From Kondoa malvinella (Eukaryota; Basidiomycota; Agaricostilbomycetes; Agaricostilbales; Kondoaceae): 64,000 nt of DNA. Within the stretch, counting starts at the first letter, position 1. Each line of letters starts with the position of its first letter. Below are positions 4,964 through 50,921 of the stretch, in pieces. The position numbers and the translations under genes are program-made. The stretch covers positions 2,394,331 through 2,458,330 of the forward strand of contig BCIM01000002.1 of NCBI GenBank assembly GCA_039545315.1, read 5' to 3'. The notes under the pieces are model-generated. The model searched no databases. It saw nothing but the letters and a program-made list of their open reading frames with translations, and was not told the DNA's origin.

Positions 4964-5668
4964 NNNNNNNNNNNNNNNNNNNNNNNNNNNNNNNNNNNNN
5001 NNNNNNNNNNNNNNNNNNNNNNNNNNNNNNNNNNNNNNNNNNNNNNNNNNNNNNNNNNNNNNNNNNNNNNNNNNNNNNNNNNNNNNNNNNNNNNNNNNNN
5101 NNNNNNNNNNNNNNNNNNNNNNNNNNNNNNNNNNNNNNNNNNNNNNNNNNNNNNNNNNNNNNNNNNNNNNNNNNNNNNNNNNNNNNNNNNNNNNNNNNNN
5201 NNNNNNNNNNNNNNNNNNNNNNNNNNNNNNNNNNNNNNNNNNNNNNNNNNNNNNNNNNNNNNNNNNNNNNNNNNNNNNNNNNNNNNNNNNNNNNNNNNNN
5301 NNNNNNNNNNNNNNNNNNNNNNNNNNNNNNNNNNNNNNNNNNNNNNNNNNNNNNNNNNNNNNNNNNNNNNNNNNNNNNNNNNNNNNNNNNNNNNNNNNNN
5401 NNNNNNNNNNNNNNNNNNNNNNNNNNNNNNNNNNNNNNNNNNNNNNNNNNNNNNNNNNNNNNNNNNNNNNNNNNNNNNNNNNNNNNNNNNNNNNNNNNNN
5501 NNNNNNNNNNNNNNNNNNNNNNNNNNNNNNNNNNNNNNNNNNNNNNNNNNNNNNNNNNNNNNNNNNNNNNNNNNNNNNNNNNNNNNNNNNNNNNNNNNNN
5601 NNNNNNNNNNNNNNNNNNNNNNNNNNNNNNNNNNNNNNNNNNNNNNNNNNNNNNNNNNNNNNNNNNNN
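4964..5668. other. Assembly gap (705 Ns)
   Basis: A run of unresolved bases. It hides the start of SFT2 and any 3' flank of ASF1. Nothing can be said about its content; its length may be an estimate. Confidence 1.
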
Positions 5669-8121: not shown

Positions 8122-10038
8122 ATGCCGAGCGCTCATGACGCTTATCAGACTCCGTACATACTCTCCTTGTCGGCAATTTCCTGATTCAAAGTTCTCACAT
8201 TATTTGTCTGCTTGTGTATCTACAGTCTATCGAGCCGCTATGCCTCTGCAGAAATGTCGAAACTCTTCTCTTCTGGCGTTCGTTTGCACCAATCTTTGAT
8301 GCGTCTTGTTATAGAGACTTAAAGTGTTAGAACAGATGCGTTGCGGAACTTGGAGAAAGTTATGGCTCAATTTGGCCATTGCAGAGAAAGAATTAGGGTT
8401 GCCTGTACCTCAAGAAGCCATAGACCAAATGAAGAACAATCTGGTCAGTGCAAACACGAAAGCCAAATGTCTAAAGCTAAATGAACCCATTCTCCTTTTG
8501 TGCAACAGGTGCTCGACAGCAAACAGATGGAGCAAGCTGCAATAGAAGAGAAAAAGAGACGACACGATGTTATGGCTCACGTTCATGTGTTTGGTCTGGT
8601 CTGTCCAGCCGCAGCGCCCATCATTCATCTTGGCGCGACTTCGTGCTATGTCACCGAGTGCGTCGCCTGCGATATAGGACTTGCACAGTGTCTCATTACA
8701 ATGACAGCAACGCAGATCTGATCTTCCTTAAACGAGGCATGGAGCTCGTAACAGACAAGCTCGCCGTCGTCATTCATCGACTTTCCGCTTGGTCAGAGCA
8801 GCACAAAGATCTCGCTTGCCTGGGATGGACTCATTTTCAGCCTGCTCAGCTGGTGACTGTCGGCAAAAGAGGTACTTTGTGGTTACAGGTGAGCCAGCTT
8901 TCAATCACCTTTGATCGCACATCTCAAGAACCGCACTCGGTAGGAGCTGTTATGGGACTTGCGCAATTTTCAGAGAGCTCGTGACGATATTGGGTTTCGT
9001 GGTGTTAAAGGCACAACCGGCACTCAGGCCTCTTTTCTCGCACTTTTTGATGGCGATCATGACAAGGTAAGTCGTTGTGATCAGCCATGCGGTCAACACT
9101 GAGCATGCCTTATCGGATCAAAGGTTGAGCAATTGGATCGGCGCGTGTCAGAGCTTTGCGGTTTCAGCTACACGTACCCAGTCACCGGTCAAACCTATTC
9201 TCGCAAGGTCGATGTGGATGTCTTGCAGCCTTTGGCATCGTTCGCTGCAACAGCTCACAAGATTGCTACCGACATACGTCTCTTGGCCAATTTGAAAGAA
9301 ATCGAAGAGCCTTTCGAAAAGGATCAGATTGGATCTAGTGCTGTAAGTGGTTCCGCCTGCATCAACCAGGCACAGTGATGATTTTCCTGCTTTCACAGAT
9401 GGCATACAAGAGAAACCCAATGCGATCGGAGAGGGTGTGTAGCTTGGCTAGGCATCTGATGGTCTTGCAGCAAGATGCTTTGATGACTTCCAGCGTACAA
9501 TGGTTTGAGCGTACACTCGATGACTCGTGCGCTGTGTCTATGCTTCTCTGCATTCCTCCATCTGACAACCTTCTGCAGGGCGAATCGACGAGTGTCCATA
9601 CCTGAAGCTTTCCTCACAGCCGACATCCTGTTGACTCTTCTGCAAAACATCTGCGAAGGTCTCGTCGTCTATCCAGCCATCATTCGCAAACACATCAACC
9701 AAGAATTGCCCTTCATGGCGACGGAAAACATTATCATGGCCATGGTAAAAGCCGGCGGTGATCGACAGATTGTCCACGAAAAGATCCGCGTCCTGTCGCA
9801 CCAAGCTGGCAAAGTCGTTAAAGAAGAAGGCGGCGAGAATGATCTCATCGAGAGGATAAGACAGGACGACTTTTTCGTGCCTATCGTGCCCCAATTGAAC
9901 AGCTTATTGGACCCGAAGAGTTTCGTAGGAAGAGCACCGGAACAAGTCACTGCATTCGTCAAAGAGTGGGTGAAACCAGCTTTACAACCGTATCAGGACT
10001 ACATTAAAGGGTCAAAAGCTGCGGAATTGAGTGTATGA
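8122..10038 (+). CDS. ADE13: Adenylosuccinate lyase
   Basis: Purine-synthesis enzyme (EC 4.3.2.2) that releases fumarate from SAICAR and from adenylosuccinate. Nine exons: 8122-8153, 8226-8277, 8336-8443, 8509-8657, 8708-8888, 8944-9066, 9124-9342, 9399-9526, 9579-10038; 483 residues, close to the yeast enzyme. Visible landmarks are [12 protein letters not shown] at the start, [57 protein letters not shown] and the fumarate-lyase signature [14 protein letters not shown], split by the intron at 9343-9398. All introns are 49-72 nt and all phases agree. Confidence 0.97.
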
Positions 10039-12516: not shown

Positions 12517-14108
12517 TTCAGATTGGTGATAGACATTTCACAGATTCTCTTTCTTGCCCAAAAAAATAGATGTGATTGGCGCGAGCCCTCCGAAGAGAGT
12601 CGAACCGTTCAAAATATTAGGCGACGCTACCCCCCAGAGGAGAGCAGCCTCTACAAGCCACGACCTGAAGAGCTGAAACGCGTCGCTGTGCAATGGATGC
12701 GGCTTGTAGAGGACATCCACGATGCTTGAGCGCTCGATGCCATCACAAGGTAAGTATGAGAGAAAGCTCGGGTTGCGAGTCTGCTTGCAGGTCAACGATT
12801 CCGGCTTGCCTGCAGACTTGTGGGTTGATCCCTCTTTTTTCTAAGGCTAGGCACGTGAGACTGCCTGGCCCTGTCTTGAGCATTGCCAATTCCAGGTGCA
12901 TAGTCGCGCCAATGCCAGTCAGATGCTGCCCTTAGCGGCTTCAATCCTTTTCCCTCCTCTGGCCTCGCTGTCCCCCGTCGCGTCTGAACAAGTCAATGAC
13001 GCGCTGGATACGCCTTTGCCTGGACATGCTGTCTGCGTGATTGGTCCAATCCCTGCCCATTGTCTGTATCACATTACCTTGAATCATTTGCGCCTTGGAG
13101 CGCTGCCAGAGTTTCCATCATCAGACGACAATGCCACCACATCCTTTCTCGAGCCGTCACAGGTGCTCATCCTGACACCGGATAGAGCTGCGCTACATGC
13201 AAGTATGGTCAATGAGCCAGATGCATGGCTGGCAAAGGAAGGCGGGAAAGGCAATACGCTTCAATTGCTAGATTTGATCGAATTCAAGTGAGACGGTCTG
13301 TATTGTGTGCTACCAACAGGACGCTGATAGAGTATATCAGCATATGCCCTACTCTAGCGCATCTCAAGTTCTGCTTGCAAACGCTTCAAGTTGCCTCGAA
13401 CGCAGCAAGCGAGTCGGACTGCTGCATAGTCTCAAGGTGGCCTTCAATGATCATCGCGCATAATCTTTCAGCGTATTACGCAAATAATGATGCAGGGTAA
13501 GACAATGTCTTCAGCTCTTGTGCCAAACTATGCTAATGTTGTTTTAGCATGGGCATATCGAGCTTTACCTCTGTGATTTCGCTGTTGAAGGACACNTGTG
13601 ACTACATTNCTCAGCAAAGTGGCAGGTCAGTGGCAGACCTTTAAAACCCAGAATGGCTCTGATGTGAAGATCCAGCGCAACGCAGCTTGTCTTGGTGGAN
13701 GANAACCTCGAATCGATCTCCTTACCGGTCATAGCACCTCATCTTCGTTCTTCACCATCCAAAACGCAGAAAGAACCCAGCACGAGATTGCCACGAGAGG
13801 TATCGTTACTGGCATCGGTCGAGCGCTACATTCCCATCAGGCTGGAAATCAGTCAAAGTAAGTTTCTCTCTCTGATCGGCAATACAAATCTGATCTGTAC
13901 CCTGTGAATAGCTTCGACTGAAGACACGGATGCGGGCTATTCGATACTCGACGAAGAAGGCTATCGCTTGACTGTCCATCAAAGCAAAGATTCGCCTGTC
14001 AGCATCAATCACCCGACTTTACCAGAGATCGATATTCCATTCTGGATAGTCAAGAAGCAAGATGAGGAAGGGTTCTTTGCGGGTGATTTGCAACATTATA
14101 GATTTTGA
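12517..14108 (+). repeat. Inverted duplication, copy A (1.59 kb)
   Basis: Matches 37338-38927 in the opposite orientation. Over the right-hand two exons position x pairs with 51446 minus x without indels. The unit holds one five-exon gene plus about 400 nt of its 5' flank; similarity starts near CAGATTGGTGATAGAC and ends exactly at the stop codon. Identity is uneven: about 99% upstream, about 95% in exon 1, 100% over 13488-13928 and about 90% in the last exon. Confidence 0.95.
12923..14108 (+). CDS. Duplicated gene, copy A: unknown protein, possible divergent RecA-like fold
   Basis: Five exons: 12923-13287, 13341-13496, 13548-13625, 13670-13857, 13912-14108; 327 residues. The start MLPLAASILFPPLAS is the first ATG in frame. 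Visible order: a strand-loop GHAVCVIGPIPAH where a P-loop would sit, VLILTPDRAALHASM, PSMIIAHNLSAYYA and LVLVEENLESISLP (two residues uncertain because of Ns). That strand-helix order recalls a degenerate RecA/SWSAP1-like core lacking Walker A, but this is a guess and I know no firm family. Exon 1 to exon 2 is split by a 53-nt intron (13288-13340). The stop is 27 nt from the stop of convergent EMC10. Ns at 13596, 13609, 13700 and 13703 fall inside exons. Confidence 0.7.
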
Positions 14109-15071: not shown

Positions 15072-16662
15072 ATGAGCACGAACGTCAAATTATCCGCAGC
15101 GAGATATGGCAAAGATAAGGTGAGTGCTTGCAAGCCGCTTATCGCTATCCAAACAAACTGACAGACAATGACTAGGTTCGCGTACTTCGTGTAGTCAAGA
15201 ATGGGAAATACCATGAAGTAGCCGAATATACGGTGTGAGTCCCTTTCAAGGACTGTCTTCCAACAAATGCTGATGTGACCTCTTAGTCGAGCTCTGCTTG
15301 AAGGGTGCGCGCATCCCTTCAGCTTTACGGGACTCTCCTGACAAGTCTACAGTGATGTAGAGACGTCCTACACCAAGGCAGACAACACAGGTATGCTATC
15401 TAGTCCCCTCTGATACGACGCACCAACTGATAGCTCGAGGCAGTCGTGGTCGCTACAGACTCGTGTGTAGCTCCTCGCGTATGTCTCAGAGCTCATACTA
15501 CTTAATAGCATCAAGAACACTACTTACAGTAAGCCTTCAGCATCCTTCACGACCAATAGACTGATTGTCCTCGCCAGTCAAAGCGAAAGAATCCAAGAAC
15601 GTCTTGCAACCTGAATCTTTCGCTCTAGAACTAGGTACTCACTTTGTCAAAACCTACGCTCACATTCACAAAGCCTTCATCGACATTACCCAACACAAAT
15701 GGTCTCGCATCCCTATTGACGGTCAAGCTCATCCTCATTCTTTCCAGCGCGACGGAGAGGATAAGCGTGTTGTGAGCGTCGAGGTTGATGCTTCGAAAGG
15801 AAAGGATAAGATTACTGCTAAAGTCAAAGGAGGTCAGTGAGACCAGACATACATGTTTTGTTTGGCCTGATGCGCGTCTGCTTGATAGGCATACAAGATC
15901 TTTTGGTACTCAAATCTACCGGATCAGCATTCGAGAACTTTGTCAGGGATGAATTCACCACTCTGCCAGGTTCTGACCTTCTCTTACACTGTCTTTGATG
16001 TTACTGATATGCAGAACAGAGGTCAGCGACCGGATCTTCTCGACATCGGTAGACTGCAGCTACGATCTCGTGATACCCGCAACTGCACTAACGGTAGAAG
16101 GCGTCTCGGACCTAGGCATTCCCTTTGATAAGATCTACCATTCTGTTGTCGATACTACTCTGCGCATCTTTAGTGAAGACGAGAGCGCTAGTGTGCAAGC
16201 TACTCTGTTCGTGTTCCACACTTTTCGTCATTCAGCTGACTGAAATCATGCTGAACAGATACAAAATGTGCGAAAAGATCATTGGCGATAACGAGCAAGT
16301 GTCGGATGTCACTTACCGTCTACCAAACCAAGTGAGTGCTCGTCAACTATTTATCAGGATAAGCAGCTGATCTCTGCTACAGCGTCCGTCTGCTTGATCT
16401 GGGCCGTCCGATATTCTGACTGACCTTTGACAGATTACTTTGCATTCGACATGTCTTTCTACAAAGGCTACAAGAACACCGCTGTCGGCGATGCAGAAGT
16501 ATACATGCCTGTTGCAGCGTGCGTTGATACAATCCCCTCATGTTCAAGTACTGATCTGCTTCCTGTTTCACAGACCAAGGTGAATACTCTTGTGCATGCA
16601 GTAGAAATGAGCTGACACATTTTCACAGCGGTCTTATCACTGCCACCGTCTCTCGTGCTTGA
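15072..16662 (+). CDS. Uricase (urate oxidase) with 14 exons
   Basis: Oxidises urate to 5-hydroxyisourate in purine breakdown, normally in peroxisomes. Exons: 15072-15119, 15176-15234, 15287-15304, 15353-15390, 15444-15462, 15509-15528, 15578-15832, 15889-15969, 16020-16206, 16259-16331, 16383, 16434-16518, 16574-16579, 16629-16662; 307 residues. Landmarks: YGKDKVRVLRV, ALLEGDVETSYTKADN, VVVATDSIKNT, KNVLQPESFALELG, DESASVQATLYKMCEK, RLPNQHYFAFDM, and PVAAPSGLITATVSRA at the end. Exon 11 is one nucleotide (C) and exon 13 six. Without exon 11 the NQHYF motif frameshifts, unless a donor 10 nt downstream is used, which adds three residues. The C-terminus SRA is not a canonical SKL peroxisome signal. 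Confidence 0.93.
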
Positions 16663-37337: not shown

Positions 37338-38521
37338 CTAGAATCGATAATGCTGCAATTCACCCGCAAAGAATCCTTCCTCGTCTTGTTTCTTGACTAT
37401 CCAAAATGGCATGTAGATATCTGGTAAGGTCGGGTGATAGATGCTGACAGGTGAATCTTTGCTTTGATGGACAGTCAAGTGATAGCCTTGTTCGTCGAGG
37501 ATCGAGTAGCCCGCATCGGTGTCTTCAGTCGAAGCTATTCACAGGGTACAGATCAGATTTGTATTGCCGATCAGAGAGAGAAACTTACTTTGACTGATTT
37601 CCAGCCTGATGGGAATGTAGCGCTCGACCGATGCCAGTAACGATACCTCTCGTGGCAATCTCGTGCTGGGTTCTTTCTGCGTTTTGGATGGTGAAGAACG
37701 AAGATGAGGTGCTATGACCGGTAAGGAGATCGATTCGAGGTTNTCNTCCACCAAGACAAGCTGCGTTGCGCTGGATCTTCACATCAGAGCCATTCTGGGT
37801 TTTAAAGGTCTGCCACTGACCTGCCACTTTGCTGAGNAATGTAGTCACANGTGTCCTTCAACAGCGAAATCACAGAGGTAAAGCTCGATATGCCCATGCT
37901 AAAACAACATTAGCATAGTTTGGCACAAGAGCTGAAGACATTGTCTTACCCTGCATCATTGTTTGCGTAATACGCTGAAAGGTTATGCGCAATGATCATG
38001 GAAGGCCACCTTGAGACTGTGCAGCAGTCCGACTCGCTTGATGCGTTCGAGGCAACTTGAAGCGTTTGCAAGCAGAACTTGAGATGTGCTAGAGTGGGAC
38101 ATATCCTGATATACTCTATCAGCGTTTCTTTCGTAGCACAATACAGGCCGTCTTACTTGAATTCGATCAAGTCTAGCAATTGAAGGGCATTGCCTTTCCC
38201 GCCTTCCTTTGCCAGCCATGCATCTGGCTCATTGACCATACCCGCATGCAGCGCAGCTCTATCCGGTGTCAGAATGAGCACCTGGGACGGCTCGAGAAAG
38301 GATGTGTTTGCATTGTCGTCTGATGATGGAAACTCTGGCAGCGCTCCAAGGCGTAAATGTTCCAAGGCAATGTGATACAGACAATTTGCAGGGAGTGGAC
38401 CGGTCACACAAACAGCATGGCCAGGCAAAGGCGTATCGAGCGCGTCATGGACTTGTTCAGACGCGACGGGAGACAGCGAGGCCAGAGGAGGGAAAAGGAT
38501 TGAAGCCGCTAAGGGCAGCAT
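37338..38521 (-). CDS. Duplicated gene, copy B: unknown protein
   Basis: Exons (reverse): 38157-38521, 37950-38105, 37821-37898, 37589-37776, 37338-37534, with exon lengths identical to copy A, so 327 residues and an intact frame. The intron 1 acceptor is the CAG before GATATG; the nearer AG would frameshift. Compared with A, exon 1 has about nine amino-acid changes (for example CVIGPIPAH to CVTGPLPAN) and the last exon a similar number (ILDEEGYRLTV to ILDEQGYHLTV). Ns at 37743, 37746, 37837 and 37850 mirror those of copy A. Convergent with the AP-1 beta gene, 42 nt apart. Confidence 0.7.
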
Positions 38522-38927
38522 CTGACTGGCATTGGCGCGACTATGCACCTGGGATTGGCAATGCTCAAGACAGGGCCAGGCAGTCTCACGTGCCTAGCCT
38601 TAGAAAAAAGAGGGATCAACCCACAAGTCTGCAGGCAAGCCGGAATCGTTGACCTGCAAGCAGACTCGCAACCCGAGCTTTCTCCCATACTTACCTTGTG
38701 ATGGCATCGAGCGCTCAAGCATCGTGGATGTCCTCTACAAGCCGCATCCATTGCACAGCGACGCGTTTCAGCTCTTCAGGTCGTGGCTTGTAGAGGCTGC
38801 TCTCCTCTGGGGGGTAGCGTCGCCTAATATTTTGGACGGTGCGACTCTCTTCGGAGGGCTCGCGCCAATCACATCTATTTTTTTGGGCAAGAAAGTGAAT
38901 CTGTGAAATGTCTATCACCGATCTGAA
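37338..38927 (-). repeat. Inverted duplication, copy B (1.59 kb)
   Basis: Reverse-strand copy of 12517-14108, about 23 kb away. The right end (37338) is the stop codon of the copied gene, and the left end is lost near 38927. The flanks of the two copies are unrelated. No terminal inverted repeats, target-site duplication or transposase frame are visible at either edge. Confidence 0.95.
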
Positions 38928-45068: not shown

Positions 45069-48000
45069 ATGCGCGAATCTCTGTTCGAAGTCTTGTTGCC
45101 TGATGAAAGTGTCCGAACTACCTTTTGCTCTGAAGACGCAACGCTCGCCAGCTTGGTCTCTCGTTTGTTGAAAGAAGATGGGCAAGAGATTGTACTGGCC
45201 TTGTTGGATTCGAGTAATGAAGCTGCTATACACAAATCGGAACTATGGGCTATACAGAAGGTCATCTCGAGCGATCCTGGCAGAATATGGTCTGAAGAGG
45301 AACTGCATGAACTCGGTGATGGTGAGTCTACACGGCTCATACGACTGAGTAGGGCTGATGGGAAATGTGTCAGGCTTGGCCGACTCTGACACTCTACTCA
45401 AGCAACTCATACCCAAATCAGCTGAAACATCAAATCGACCTACAGCGCAAAGGCAGTTCTCAGACTTCAGCCTATCCTCGCACTTACACAAACCTTTTCT
45501 TCGTTTGGTCTACCTCCCTTATTGCCTCAATGTGACATTCGCAAACATCCCTGAAATGCCAGAAGGTTTCCAATACACTCTCTTTGTTGGTTCTTCTATG
45601 ACGATTGCCGACTGCATCGAAAGCTTGCTCTCTGATTTCGGTATCAAAAGGACTGTTCAGCAAGGAGCTAAAACTGCTCGGATTGAATATGCTTTTGAAC
45701 TACCTGGTCGTGATCAAGCTATCCCAAGCAACGAGAAGATCATGACACATCTAGGAGATGCAAGAGCTATGGGTCCACCTTATCACGTTCGGTTCACTTT
45801 GTCAAGGGATTGGTTCGCTCGACTAGGAACAGTAGCCAATGGGTTCACCAAACTATCTCGGAGACCTACAGTCGTCAGTCGGAATTCTTCAGATGCGACT
45901 AAATCAAGCTGGAGACCTTCGTCCATGTTTGGCTTGTGGAATTATCCGACACTTGAAGAATCAGCTGAAGAGGAAGATGAATCAGCTGCTAGTACTTTGA
46001 AAGGCTCTTCACCTCAATTGAATACAGCTAGTTCTAGAGCTCGTACCACCAACAGTGGATCTCGTCTATCGTCACTCTTTGACTCTTGGGCGCCTGCAAG
46101 TCCAGATCCAGCTTTGACTAAATCGCCTAAACCTGATTCAACCCGTCCTTCTCGATCTCGAATAGTCTCTGAACCAATCTCGATGAGCAACTCTCCCGAT
46201 CTCAATACTTTGAAAATCTCATCACCCCAAGCGCTAGGCATCACTTTTGATACTGAAGAAACAAGCCTAGATGACCAATTTGAACAACTCATGCTCAGTC
46301 TAGGCATAAAACAAGATTCCAAAGCTGGCATGCGATCCCTTTCAGAGGATAGAAAACGTTTCCTCATCAACCAACACCAACAACAGACCATGACTCCTTT
46401 ACGACCTCAACAAACTGGTCCTGCTCCATCAAGCGAAAGTACATTATCAAACCTCAAACGCATGTCTTTAGCTACTGTTGGTCTATCATGGGAAGAAGCA
46501 CCAACTACTCGAACGCATTCACCCGCTAGTTCGATAAGTAGTTTTAATGCCGTGTCGACCCTCCCACCGCCTACAACATCAGAATGGACTTCATGGTTCT
46601 CTTCAACTTCTGCAGTGGAAGAATCACCAGCTTGGTTCGTCAGTATGCTCAAGGGTGGTAAAAATGGAAAGATTTTAGTCAAGCATTTGATTAGTTTGAG
46701 AGTGAGATTAGCTACGGAGCCTTTGGTTTGGATGCAAGAGTTTGTTGAGGTGCCTGTGGATGGGGTCAGAAGTCTGGAAGGTTTGTTGGAAAAGACTGTG
46801 GGGAAACAAAAAGTTGAGATGGGCGATTCGGTTGAAGCGATGCAATTTGAGTGTATCAAGTGTTTGAGGGTGTTGATGAATACTGAGGTGTGCTTTACAT
46901 CTAAGATGGAAATCGTAGCTGACAATGAAGGTAGATTGGTTTCGAGCGCGTCCTTTTAAGCAGTCATCTGGTCACCACAATCGCCTACTGCCTCTTTTCA
47001 ACATCAAACAAGCTCAGATCACAAGTAGCAGACCTCCTCGCTGCTCTATGCATGCTCTCCTTACAAGACGGTCATCGAATCGTCCTCGCAGCACTATCCG
47101 ATTTCAAAGTCGCGCATGATGAGAAATTCCGCTTCACCTATCTTATCGATAGTATTCTACCTAAAGATGATCTGGATGAGGAAGAGCTCAATACTGGTGT
47201 TTGGGAATATAGAGCTGCTGCTTTGTCGTTGTTGAACGCTTTGACTAATTCGCCCGAGGAGTTGGAAGAAAGGATCGCATTGAGGGAGGAGCTTAGTAGA
47301 AGAGGTTTGAACGAAGTCATGACTGTAAGTTATCGGTCGACGATGGAGAAGCAGAACTGATAGACTTTCCGGTAGGCACTAAAATATTGCGGGCCGCCAG
47401 ATGCAGTATTGACGCAGATGAAAGTCTATGCCGAAGAGAAGCAGGAAGATCAGGAAGACCTGCATGAGCGTACAGTGGGTAGATCGAGAGATGACGAGTA
47501 GGTTGAGATGCATGAATAGAGTTCGCTTGCTCAAGTCTGAACAGGTCGGCTGGAATACCGCTATCAGAATTGATCAGGCTGGCTCAAGAGCATGAAGACC
47601 TGTATCCTATATTGGTCGAGACGGTCAAGAAGTACATTGCCATCTTCGACAGGCAGATAGACGGGTGAGCTCTTCGTCTCTGTGTTCCAAAGGGCTACTA
47701 GATTGAAGCGGATCGCAGGTCACTCAAAGAAGACCTGCTGACCATCCTGGACAACTTTGTTGCGCATGCGAGTCATCTCGAAAACTTTGATGAAGGCTGG
47801 CGGACCTTCATGCGGCAATACCTGACATCTGTCCAACACATAGTCGGCCAGCAAGCCATTATCCGCTCGTCTAAAGTCTCTGATACCGCTAGTGTGCCTT
47901 CCAGCTTCATTGAAGAGCTGGAAGCACTTCGAGGCAAAGTTGAAGAGCTCAGCGATGAGGTGAAAAAGTCACAAGCTAAATACAGCGACATCTTCTGATT

Positions 48001-50921
48001 GTAGTGACAGAGGACTGCTTTGCGGGCGGAACTTAACGACCGGATAGCGGAGACAAACACCCTTCGCTCGTTGCGTGCAGAAGGGACATCACCTGGTCGA
48101 AATAGTATAGTAAGATCGTCTTGGTCTCCCTGAACTCTACGTCTGACTGAGAGTGAAGCGTGGTGCACGATCTGGCGAACAAGAGGTTTGTCTACCAGAC
48201 ACTACAAGGAAGCTTAAGTGTACTGAGCAACTTTGCAGAATTTCTCGGGCGTCATTCAGCGGCTAGTACAGAAAGAAAAGCAAGTGCTACAACTACAAGC
48301 TGAAGTGGATCGGCTGTCGGCTTCAGGCAAGCGCGCGGAGGATGTGAGTGGCTTTGATTGTTAACTAGGCCATTGCTGACTCTATTATAGCCTGACCTTC
48401 TTAAGAAGGAGAGGGCTGAGCGGAATCGACAATGGACGACCTTGATAGAAGAGATCACTCAGCTCAAGACCAAGGTAAATGAGACGCGCCGGAAAGCAAA
48501 GCCTAGCTAATTCGAGGACAGCTCATCGACTCGGACGCCATCGTTGCCCAGCGACAGAAGGACATTGTCTACCTCAAGCGAGCTTTGGAGTCGGTGTACA
48601 CCAGATTCCAGAGTAGTCTCAGTGCAGCAGAAGACATTAACATTCCTGCCGCCGAGACTACCACAGACGAATTGGTGAATAAGTCAATGGAGGCTTTGAA
48701 TCAGCGAGAAGAGAACGTCCGAACTTTAGAAGCGGAAGTCGCATCTCTGAAAGCTCAGCTCGCCTCGCAGCAGAAACCAGACAGGACACGGATGGTCAAC
48801 GCTCGTAAGATTAGCGGTCTTGTTGCGCAACATCGACCTGCTCCATTACCGCCAGAAGAATCTATAAAGGAAGACGTTGCCTCAGAGAGCAAAGCGATCG
48901 TCTCCCCAGTCAATTTGGAACCCTCTTCGTCAAGCAGTGTTGCTACTTCGATAATACCTCCTCCTCCGCCTCCACCGCCTTTCATGCGCGCAGCTAGCAG
49001 CCAGATCGCTCAAACAGCTCGACCCGCTGTCAAATCGACGGTCTCTGCTCCATCCATGAATCAAGGTATAACAATCCCTCCGCCGCCACCGCCTCCTGCT
49101 CCTTCATCTATACTCATGTCTAAGCCAATAGCGATCGCACCAACACCACCACCGGCACCTCCTTTGATGTCTGTCAAACCCGCTATCAAATTGCCGCCTG
49201 TCCATATTACACCGGGTGTCAAGATGAAGCCATTCTTCTGGAACAAGCTCGCTGCTCCCACCGTTCAGAAAAGTATATGGGCTGATATCAAACCGGAAGA
49301 CCACCAAATCGATTTTTCACAGCTGGAGACATACTTCTCAGCAAAGCCAGCTGCACAAAGCAAACTCGTTCCAGATATGAGCAAAGCAAACACAGCCAAA
49401 GTACAGCCAAAGACCTTATTGGATATCAATAGAGCCACCAACATTGGTGTCGTGCTAGCTCGTTTTCGGATGCCAGCTACGGCGATTCGGGATGCTATTT
49501 TACGACTAGACGACAAGAGAATTTCTCTGGACATGTTGAAGGCAGTCAAGACCATTGCTCCACAACCTGATGAGGTGAATCCTGCAGTGAACCTTTTGTG
49601 AATTGTCTTAAGTCTCTGTGGTAGATCGAGACCATACGAGCCTACACTGGAGACTTCAAAACACTATCAGCTGGCGACCAACTTTTCAAAGAGGTAATTA
49701 CTTTTTCGTGTACGTTCAAAGCGACAGACTGACGAACGATCGAATTACAGATTGCAAGTATACCCCGACTCAGCGAGCGCCTGAGCTGTATGATCTTCCG
49801 ACGTCGCTTCGAGATGGATCTAGAGGAGATCAAGCCAGAGCTTACCATCCTGCGAGCGGCAAACGATGAGCTGCGCAGCTCTGATGCTTTCAAGAAGCTG
49901 CTATCGCTCATTCTTGTGATCGGAAACAATCTGAATGCCTCTACATTCCGCGGGAATGCGTCCGGATTTCAGCTAGAAGCTCTATTGAAGGCAAGTGTCG
50001 CCTCTCGCTGTACGCATCGCTTGCTAATGACGTGAAACAGCTTAAAGACCTTCGGGCTAGCAATACCGGTTCTAATACTCCAACGCTGCTACATTTCGCT
50101 GTACAACAGATCCAGAAGCTAGATTCAAAGCTCATGGACTATCTCGTGACCATGCGACATGTTGAAGCAGCTTCTCGAAGTAAGCCTCACCGTTACGTTG
50201 CCGGACTCATCTGATCATCGATCAGTATCCATCGCCTCGCTCACTGCTGCTTCAACTGCTTTTGGGAATAGCTTTGCTCAACTCAAGCACGAGTTACAAG
50301 TAGCTAAGAAGGCACCTCGAATACCTGGTGATCGCTTCACGGATGTGATGGAGGTAGGTCAGTCCCTCTATCATTATCGATGACCGCTCACAGAGAATAT
50401 CTTTAGACCTTTCTCCAAAGCGCAGCTCCAGCTGTGGAAGTCCTTAGGGGCCTAGTCAGCGCCATCGATAAAGATCTCCGAGATCTAGTCATCTACTACG
50501 GTGAAGACCCAAGCAACACTAAACCAGAAGATGTCTTTGCTACAGTAGTCACTTTCGCTGGTTTGCTACATCAGACATCGGATGAAATGGCAGAAGATGA
50601 ACGGAGGAAAGCGAGGATGGCTGCTCCGCGAAAAGGTGCAGCGTATGAGGTGAGTCTACTTCTCAATGACCTTTTGGTCTATGTTGACGGCAGATCTCAC
50701 AGGCCAAACCAAGCACACCGGCTCGGCGGATGGATCAGGCTCGCTCACCCATGCGCGCAAGGAGACGAGAAGCCTCTTCAGACGGACGCAACTCGTTAGG
50801 CAAGAATGGGTTCGACCAAACACTGCGGCATTTACGCGCTGGTGCTCGATTCGGCAGCCGGAGAGAACGGGATCGACCTTTAAGCAGAATCTTCTTGGAT
50901 GGTGCGGGTGGTAGAGGGTAA
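45069..50921 (+). CDS. Formin (GBD/FH3-FH1-FH2-DAD)
   Basis: Actin nucleator and elongation factor, about 1600 residues in many exons. In order: Rho-binding GBD and FH3 armadillo region (MRESLFEVLLPDESVR to LNEVMTALKYCG), a helical dimerisation part, a coiled coil (DLLKKERAERNRQWTT), three proline runs forming FH1 near 48955-49175 (PPPPPPPPF, PPPPPPPAP), FH2 (KMKPFFWNKLAAP, NIGVVLARFRMP, LILVIGNNLNAST, VIYYGEDPSN) and a DAD-like C-terminus FDQTLRHLRAGARFGSRR. The DAD plus GBD pair implies autoinhibition released by Rho GTPase. First-exon choice is tentative; frames upstream of 45069 are closed. Confidence 0.92.

Follow-up and report, generated by a model that had tools for sequence, protein, structure and literature searches.

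The window, the whole stretch of 64,000 nucleotides that was analysed, lies in a genome assembly of 19.09 Mb in 20 contigs and contains a uricase (urate oxidase) gene, for which a spliced model was built by hand from the sequence. The gene, the part of it under study and a formin gene of the same window are as follows.

15072..16662, plus strand: uricase gene, from ATG to TGA; 14 exons, 307 amino acid residues
16259..16331, plus strand: exon 10, 73 nt, ending in ...CTACCAAACCAA (LPNQ), phase 0
16332..16382, plus strand: predicted intron 10, 51 nt, GTGAGT...CTGAT...ACAG; 99th percentile of the 739 introns predicted outside uricase
16383..16383, plus strand: predicted exon 11, the single nucleotide C, base 1 of the CAT codon of His267
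16384..16433, plus strand: predicted intron 11, 50 nt, GTCCGT...CTGACTGAC...ACAG; 85th percentile of the same 739 introns
16342..16433, plus strand: rejected alternative, a single 92-nt intron with donor GTCAAC (donor score 0.25), judged unlikely
16434..16518, plus strand: exon 12, 85 nt, opening with AT-TAC (the remainder of the His codon, then YF)
16519..16573, plus strand: intron 12, 55 nt (spliced model, splice scoring)
16574..16579, plus strand: exon 13, a 6-nt micro-exon, ACCAAG (spliced model, uricase alignment)
16580..16628, plus strand: intron 13, 49 nt (spliced model, splice scoring)
45069..50921: formin gene with Drf_GBD and Drf_FH3 domains and an FH2 part similar to the DAAM1 and mDia1 chains

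Another purine enzyme, a predicted adenylosuccinate lyase (Lyase_1, ADSL_C), is encoded at 8122-10038, 5 kb from the uricase gene. The window also contains an inverted duplication of 1.6 kb (12517-14104 and 37342-38927; 96% alike, approximately 23 kb apart), which carries two copies of a predicted gene of 325 amino acid residues with no Pfam match (one copy was scanned). Positions 13596, 13609, 13700 and 13703 are single N's that have their mirror counterparts at 37850, 37837, 37746 and 37743, so the two copies were probably hard to distinguish during assembly. The run of N's at 4964-5668 is an assembly gap or a masked stretch, and the output of the gene finder is meaningless there.

The predicted uricase matches Pfam family PF01014 (237 bits) and is colinear with the Aspergillus flavus urate oxidase chains in PDB. 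In the model the reading frame of 924 nt is interrupted by 13 introns, all GT-AG, of 46-56 nt and 667 nt in total. The boundaries of intron 8 (15970-16019) are based on colinearity with homologues; its donor, GTTCTG, scores -3.31, below that of every intron that the gene finder predicted outside uricase. Exon 13, of 6 nt, is not mentioned in the preliminary description of this DNA. It encodes Pro296 and portions of Ala295 and Ser297, where the Pro and Ser are each conserved in 119 of 121 aligned uricases (the query and 120 listed of 3761 matches), and its bordering introns are at the 76th and 78th percentiles of the 739 introns predicted outside uricase. Skipping of exon 13 would remove two residues and leave the frame intact. 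The protein ends in SRA (16651-16662) and not in SKL. In the same 121 sequences (query plus 120 listed of 3761 matches) the C-terminus is SKL in 2, AKL in 18 and SRK in 25; given the SRA end and the rarity of SKL among the aligned uricases, no canonical peroxisomal signal is apparent.

The preliminary description had placed two complete-looking introns on either side of a single base, C16383, and this arrangement is exact in the sequence: CAA ends at 16331, ATTAC begins at 16434, and the GT donors, branch texts (CTGAT and CTGACTGAC) and ACAG acceptors of both introns are all present. The effect described for the reading frame likewise holds in the sequence. Joining of CAA, C and AT-TAC, said to restore NQHYF, gives LPNQHYF (with N265, Q266 and H267) in an open frame of 307 amino acid residues when both introns are removed, and removal of the 102 nt in one piece breaks the frame, as had been stated. 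The base at 16383 is flanked by AG and GT (AG-C-GT), and both flanking introns, which are predicted and not cDNA-proven, carry the full splice signals of the host genome. The base is needed both for the frame and for the conserved motif. AG-N-GT occurs once in the 102-nt stretch, with N being the C that the frame requires. Between 16340 and 16429 there are 24 single bases, all C, that could supply the missing base; one of these, at the midpoint, is framed by AG and GT.

In the uricase alignment, of 121 rows (the query and 120 listed of 3761 matches), PN.H[YFCW] is found in 120 of 121 sequences including the query. The Asn is invariant (121/121) and the His is present in 120 of 121, the exception being P0111, which reads NNAL at the motif; no column of these 121 sequences (query plus 120 listed of 3761 matches) has an insertion between the Asn and the His. 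N265 and H267 align with Asn254 and His256 of the A. flavus enzyme (the numbering is offset by one, by our own reckoning). K14, T59, Q239, N265 and H267 are all present and align with Lys10, Thr57, Gln228, Asn254 and His256, where Gln228 is taken by us to be one of the functional residues. Retention of these five residues argues against the possibility that the gene is dead or mis-spliced here and that functional uricase is not made, as do the remaining 13 exons and 11 introns, which give an open, colinear frame of 307 amino acid residues once the C is counted; a dead or mis-spliced gene is thus exceedingly improbable. In A. flavus urate oxidase the catalytic water is located between Thr57 and Asn254, and His256 is a hydrogen-bond acceptor from Lys10 (PMC7792999). 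An insertion between the equivalents of Asn254 and His256 would land within the active site.

The closest homologue among the matches listed, P0001, shows a full-length identity of 89%, also has 307 amino acid residues and reads LPNQHYF; the next named matches listed are from basidiomycetes, at approximately 63% identity. A tree built from 60 of the 121 aligned rows joins the query to P0001 (support 100/99); P0029, a sequence of a Cyphobasidiales MAG, comes next (support 99/77, not starred), which makes the source probably a pucciniomycotine fungus close to the Cystobasidiomycetes. The JGI contig that encodes P0001 has a length of 1026 nt. As the 924-nt frame and 667 nt of introns amount to approximately 1590 nt, this contig cannot carry the present intron set. 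P0001 thus looks cDNA-derived, though its source may instead be an intron-poor gene.

Splice sites were scored with a gene finder trained on 200 kb of contig 2 and the window, with the plus-strand introns of uricase excluded from training. The final splice model is based on 720 introns (median 51 nt, 5-95% range 45-61 nt), which are predicted and not cDNA-proven, and percentiles refer to the final set of predictions outside uricase, 739 introns. Since training seeds were limited to 62 nt or less and donors scoring below 1.0 were dropped, percentiles for length and donor in part reflect these filters. Total scores are 21.6 for intron 10 (99th percentile of the 739) and 19.2 for intron 11 (85th). 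A plain 102-nt intron is at the 20th percentile of the same set, mainly owing to its length. Few training introns (4 of 720) share the GTCCGT donor of intron 11, although the GT-N-N-GT pattern is found in 416 of 720. The one-nucleotide exon was called by the gene finder at all three cost settings without homology; at every one of these settings it misparsed the uricase gene in two further places.

Splicing alternatives were enumerated for donors at 16262-16459, acceptors at 16290-16499 and introns of 36-170 nt, while the remainder of the gene model was kept constant. There are 551 possible GT-AG parses (69 single and 482 paired), of which 89 are open to the natural end. One of the 551, that with the one-nucleotide exon, keeps PN.HY, and it also has the top splice score, 14.8 versus 3.9 for the runner-up (11 nats; 551 parses). 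When GC donors are allowed (127 single and 2022 paired parses) it is still the sole parse with PN.HY and is first, 14.8 versus 4.9. Because of the length and donor bias in training, the ranking was repeated without the length term; the parse with the one-nucleotide exon is first in six of six combinations (two models and three intron costs), by 4.7-5.8 nats.

An alternative already raised in the preliminary description is one 92-nt intron with its donor 10 nt downstream, at 16342 (GTCAAC). As had been stated, this inserts three residues: Val-Ser-Ala would stand between Asn-Gln and His, giving NQVSAHYF, with the 10 nt GTGAGTGCTC retained in the mRNA. The frame and the histidine are preserved by this intron, and the homology-supported intron 8 of the same gene has a weaker donor (-3.31 versus 0.25), so a weak donor excludes nothing by itself; both donors score below those of all 739 introns, for which the floor was 1.0. 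The total score of the 92-nt intron, however, is at the 6th percentile, and when length is ignored it ranks 9th to 28th of the 89 open parses. It would bypass the GTGAGT donor 10 nt upstream and would break an active-site motif that is uninterrupted in 120 of 121 aligned uricases (the query and 120 listed of 3761 matches). At 92 nt it also contrasts with the 46-56 nt of the 11 undisputed introns of the gene; among 172 seed introns, for which lengths of up to 99 nt were allowed, 125 are 62 nt or less and 12 are at least 90 nt. Two arguments are not relied upon here. That the 16342 donor is too weak was withdrawn as an argument on its own, given the donor floor of 1.0 and the -3.31 of intron 15970-16019, and the statement that introns of this genome are 45-61 nt is partly built in, as seeds were capped at 62 nt. 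Use of the 16342 donor is considered highly unlikely.

A stwintron (nested twin intron), in which the external intron has a splice signal interrupted by an internal one and no base is kept, would likewise account for adjoining introns in a fungus and for consecutive removal reactions. It would, however, be removed overall as one contiguous stretch. Every contiguous removal of at least 20 nt with any boundary letters was examined (start 16262-16439, end at or before 16499), and none of the 23,229 yields PN.HY or PN.HF, so an mRNA encoding the motif cannot arise through a single intron or a stwintron. A stwintron at this site is almost certainly not the explanation. Nor is the site a ratchet point of recursive splicing, where AG and GT are juxtaposed (AG/GT) and no base is kept; the sequence here is AG-C-GT.

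The contribution of chance was estimated from 20,000 shuffles of the 102-nt stretch in which 8 nt at its start and 26 nt at its end were fixed and the middle was randomised. A one-nucleotide exon with both introns scoring at least as high as the weaker real intron was found in none of the 20,000. At a looser cut-off (both introns at least 15) there were 48 of 20,000 with a one-nucleotide exon, and 130 of 20,000 had any frame-restoring micro-exon of 1-16 nt. When 264 kb were read in both directions, there were two AG-N-GT junctions flanked on each side by an intron of 40-65 nt scoring at least 15. One is the uricase junction, where the weaker intron scores 19.2; the other (L019, position 4439) reaches 15.1 and is unused in the gene predicted there. 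The uricase AG-C-GT junction between two introns is more than chance. This bears on the proposal of a single 102-nt intron with a one-base assembly error and no micro-exon. One missing base beside the junction would indeed repair the frame, but the intron would be roughly double the size of the gene's 11 undisputed introns (46-56 nt) and would have to contain, by chance, a central AG-C-GT with intron-like halves, as in 0 of 20,000 shuffles. Such an error is very highly improbable.

A second one-nucleotide exon, A47520, was called by the gene finder in the formin gene, between introns scoring 13.5 and 13.0. This call is false: the homologue P0121 (HERTVGMARDDTSDVPLSDLIRLAQEHE) shows that the stretch is coding, and the true parse has one 47-nt intron, 47498-47544, giving HERTVGRSRDDESAGIPLSELIRLAQEHE. 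It follows that an ab initio call of a one-nucleotide exon is insufficient by itself, and what counts in the uricase case is the agreement of the ab initio call with homology. Touching introns with zero bases between them were also called, at about 3051 of L018 (plus strand) and about 1006579 of contig 2 (minus strand); these are likely to be longer or misplaced introns.

The interpretation of C16383 as a one-nucleotide exon, made in the preliminary description, is well supported by the genomic sequence, and it is preferred over the alternatives given there by homology, by the enumeration of parses and by splice scoring with or without intron length. C16383 is very probably a genuine coding exon of one nucleotide, with two normal, short, intron-defined introns removed successively to give CAA-C-ATTAC, and we infer that the cell produces this mRNA. 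The spliced junction would then read ...AACCAACATTACTTT...; the junctions ...CAAGTGAGTGCTCATTAC... and ...CAAATTAC..., and CAAGTGAGTGCTC joined to ATTAC, would be incompatible with it.

As the introns are short, splice sites probably pair across them, in which case the size of an exon would matter little; such pairing has been demonstrated in fission yeast, and a case for it has been made in filamentous ascomycetes (PMC6616335). Under such intron definition, introns 10 and 11 would each be recognised as one unit and excised successively. The acceptor of intron 10 (ACAG/C) and the donor of intron 11 (AGC/GTCCGT in the precursor) share bases, making simultaneous binding unlikely. Intron 10 would be excised first, changing the context of the second donor from AGC/GTCCGT to AAC/GTCCGT, a slightly better site (its score rises from 4.41 to 5.05 once intron 10 is gone), and intron 11 would then be excised from the new junction. 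There is a modest preference for this order, since intron 10 is among the best-scoring introns of the sample and its removal improves the donor of intron 11. With the reverse order, intron 11 first, the acceptor of intron 10 is unchanged and the mRNA is identical. In the enumeration, skipping of C16383 gives a frameshifted mRNA. The serial route suggested in the preliminary description is plausible. A stronger proposal is that the order is obligatory, with the overlapping donor and acceptor permitting one removal at a time and the first removal improving the second donor, in a ratchet-like process that leaves one coding base of the active site. This is a tentative possibility, somewhat short of an even chance, and would be, to our knowledge, without precedent in the Basidiomycota.

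An origin of the pair by duplication of one intron has no support, as the similarity between introns 10 and 11 is reached by 26% of 2000 random pairs. A search of the genome with 115 bases around the intron pair, by a method that skips common words, returned the self match only, and comparison of the locus with viral contigs (viral sequences only) gave no match.

One-nucleotide exons were described as very rare at the outset, with plant APC11 as the precedent. The rarity stands; APC11 is not the sole precedent, since the nuclear cases presented with RNA proof also include VPS55 (PMC8831610) and Fusarium CYP621A (PMC12940212, 2026) in addition to APC11 (PMC4674806). Like the uricase, CYP621A, as described in PMC12940212, is a fungal nuclear gene with an AG/GT-flanked base that is essential for the frame and lies in a conserved protein motif. 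It encodes an ascomycete P450, the base is G, the middle base of a Gly codon, and RNA reads are available, whereas in the basidiomycete uricase the base is C, the first of a His codon, and the exon is predicted from genomic sequence. The intronic stretch is 139 nt in F. graminearum (PMC12940212); in uricase it is 102 nt, split 51/50. The one-base exon of Arabidopsis APC11 is also frame-essential; it is an A in a plant gene, within an intronic stretch of 422 nt, and is experimentally proven (PMC4674806). Older annotation of APC11 wrongly took in 10 nt of intron, resembling the 16342 alternative here, and Guo and Liu suggested intron definition with sequential removal, the same combination as proposed for uricase (PMC4674806). 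The VPS55 exon of land plants similarly lies between two introns, has a conserved donor GTRAGT and is reported as proven by RNA-seq and RT-PCR; some transcripts lack the micro-exon through intron retention (PMC8831610).

More distant parallels are found in fungal mitochondria, where in Ophiostoma and Ceratocystis one base separates two introns (PMC12308204); these are group II introns of the mitochondrial rnl gene and involve no spliceosome. A mitochondrial one-nucleotide exon is also reported from placozoans (PMC5436844). Stwintrons and ratchet points share with the uricase pair a stepwise removal, one splicing event before another, but keep no junction base, unlike uricase, which keeps one (PMC6616335, PMC8605326). 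No one-nucleotide exon of a basidiomycete was found in the PMC literature searched, where papers on micro-exons in basidiomycetes were checked by title and the start of the abstract. The kind is thus already known and the uricase exon is a new, predicted example of it. Annotation pipelines are likely to overlook it, as is reported to have happened with APC11 (PMC4674806), VPS55 (PMC8831610) and CYP621A (PMC12940212).

If the prediction is correct, it would point to independent origins of such exons in intron-dense fungi, the present one lying between two introns of about 50 nt each, at an active-site histidine of a well-studied enzyme. The uricase gene would also provide a compact substrate for tests of the way in which the spliceosome deals with splice sites that have bases in common.
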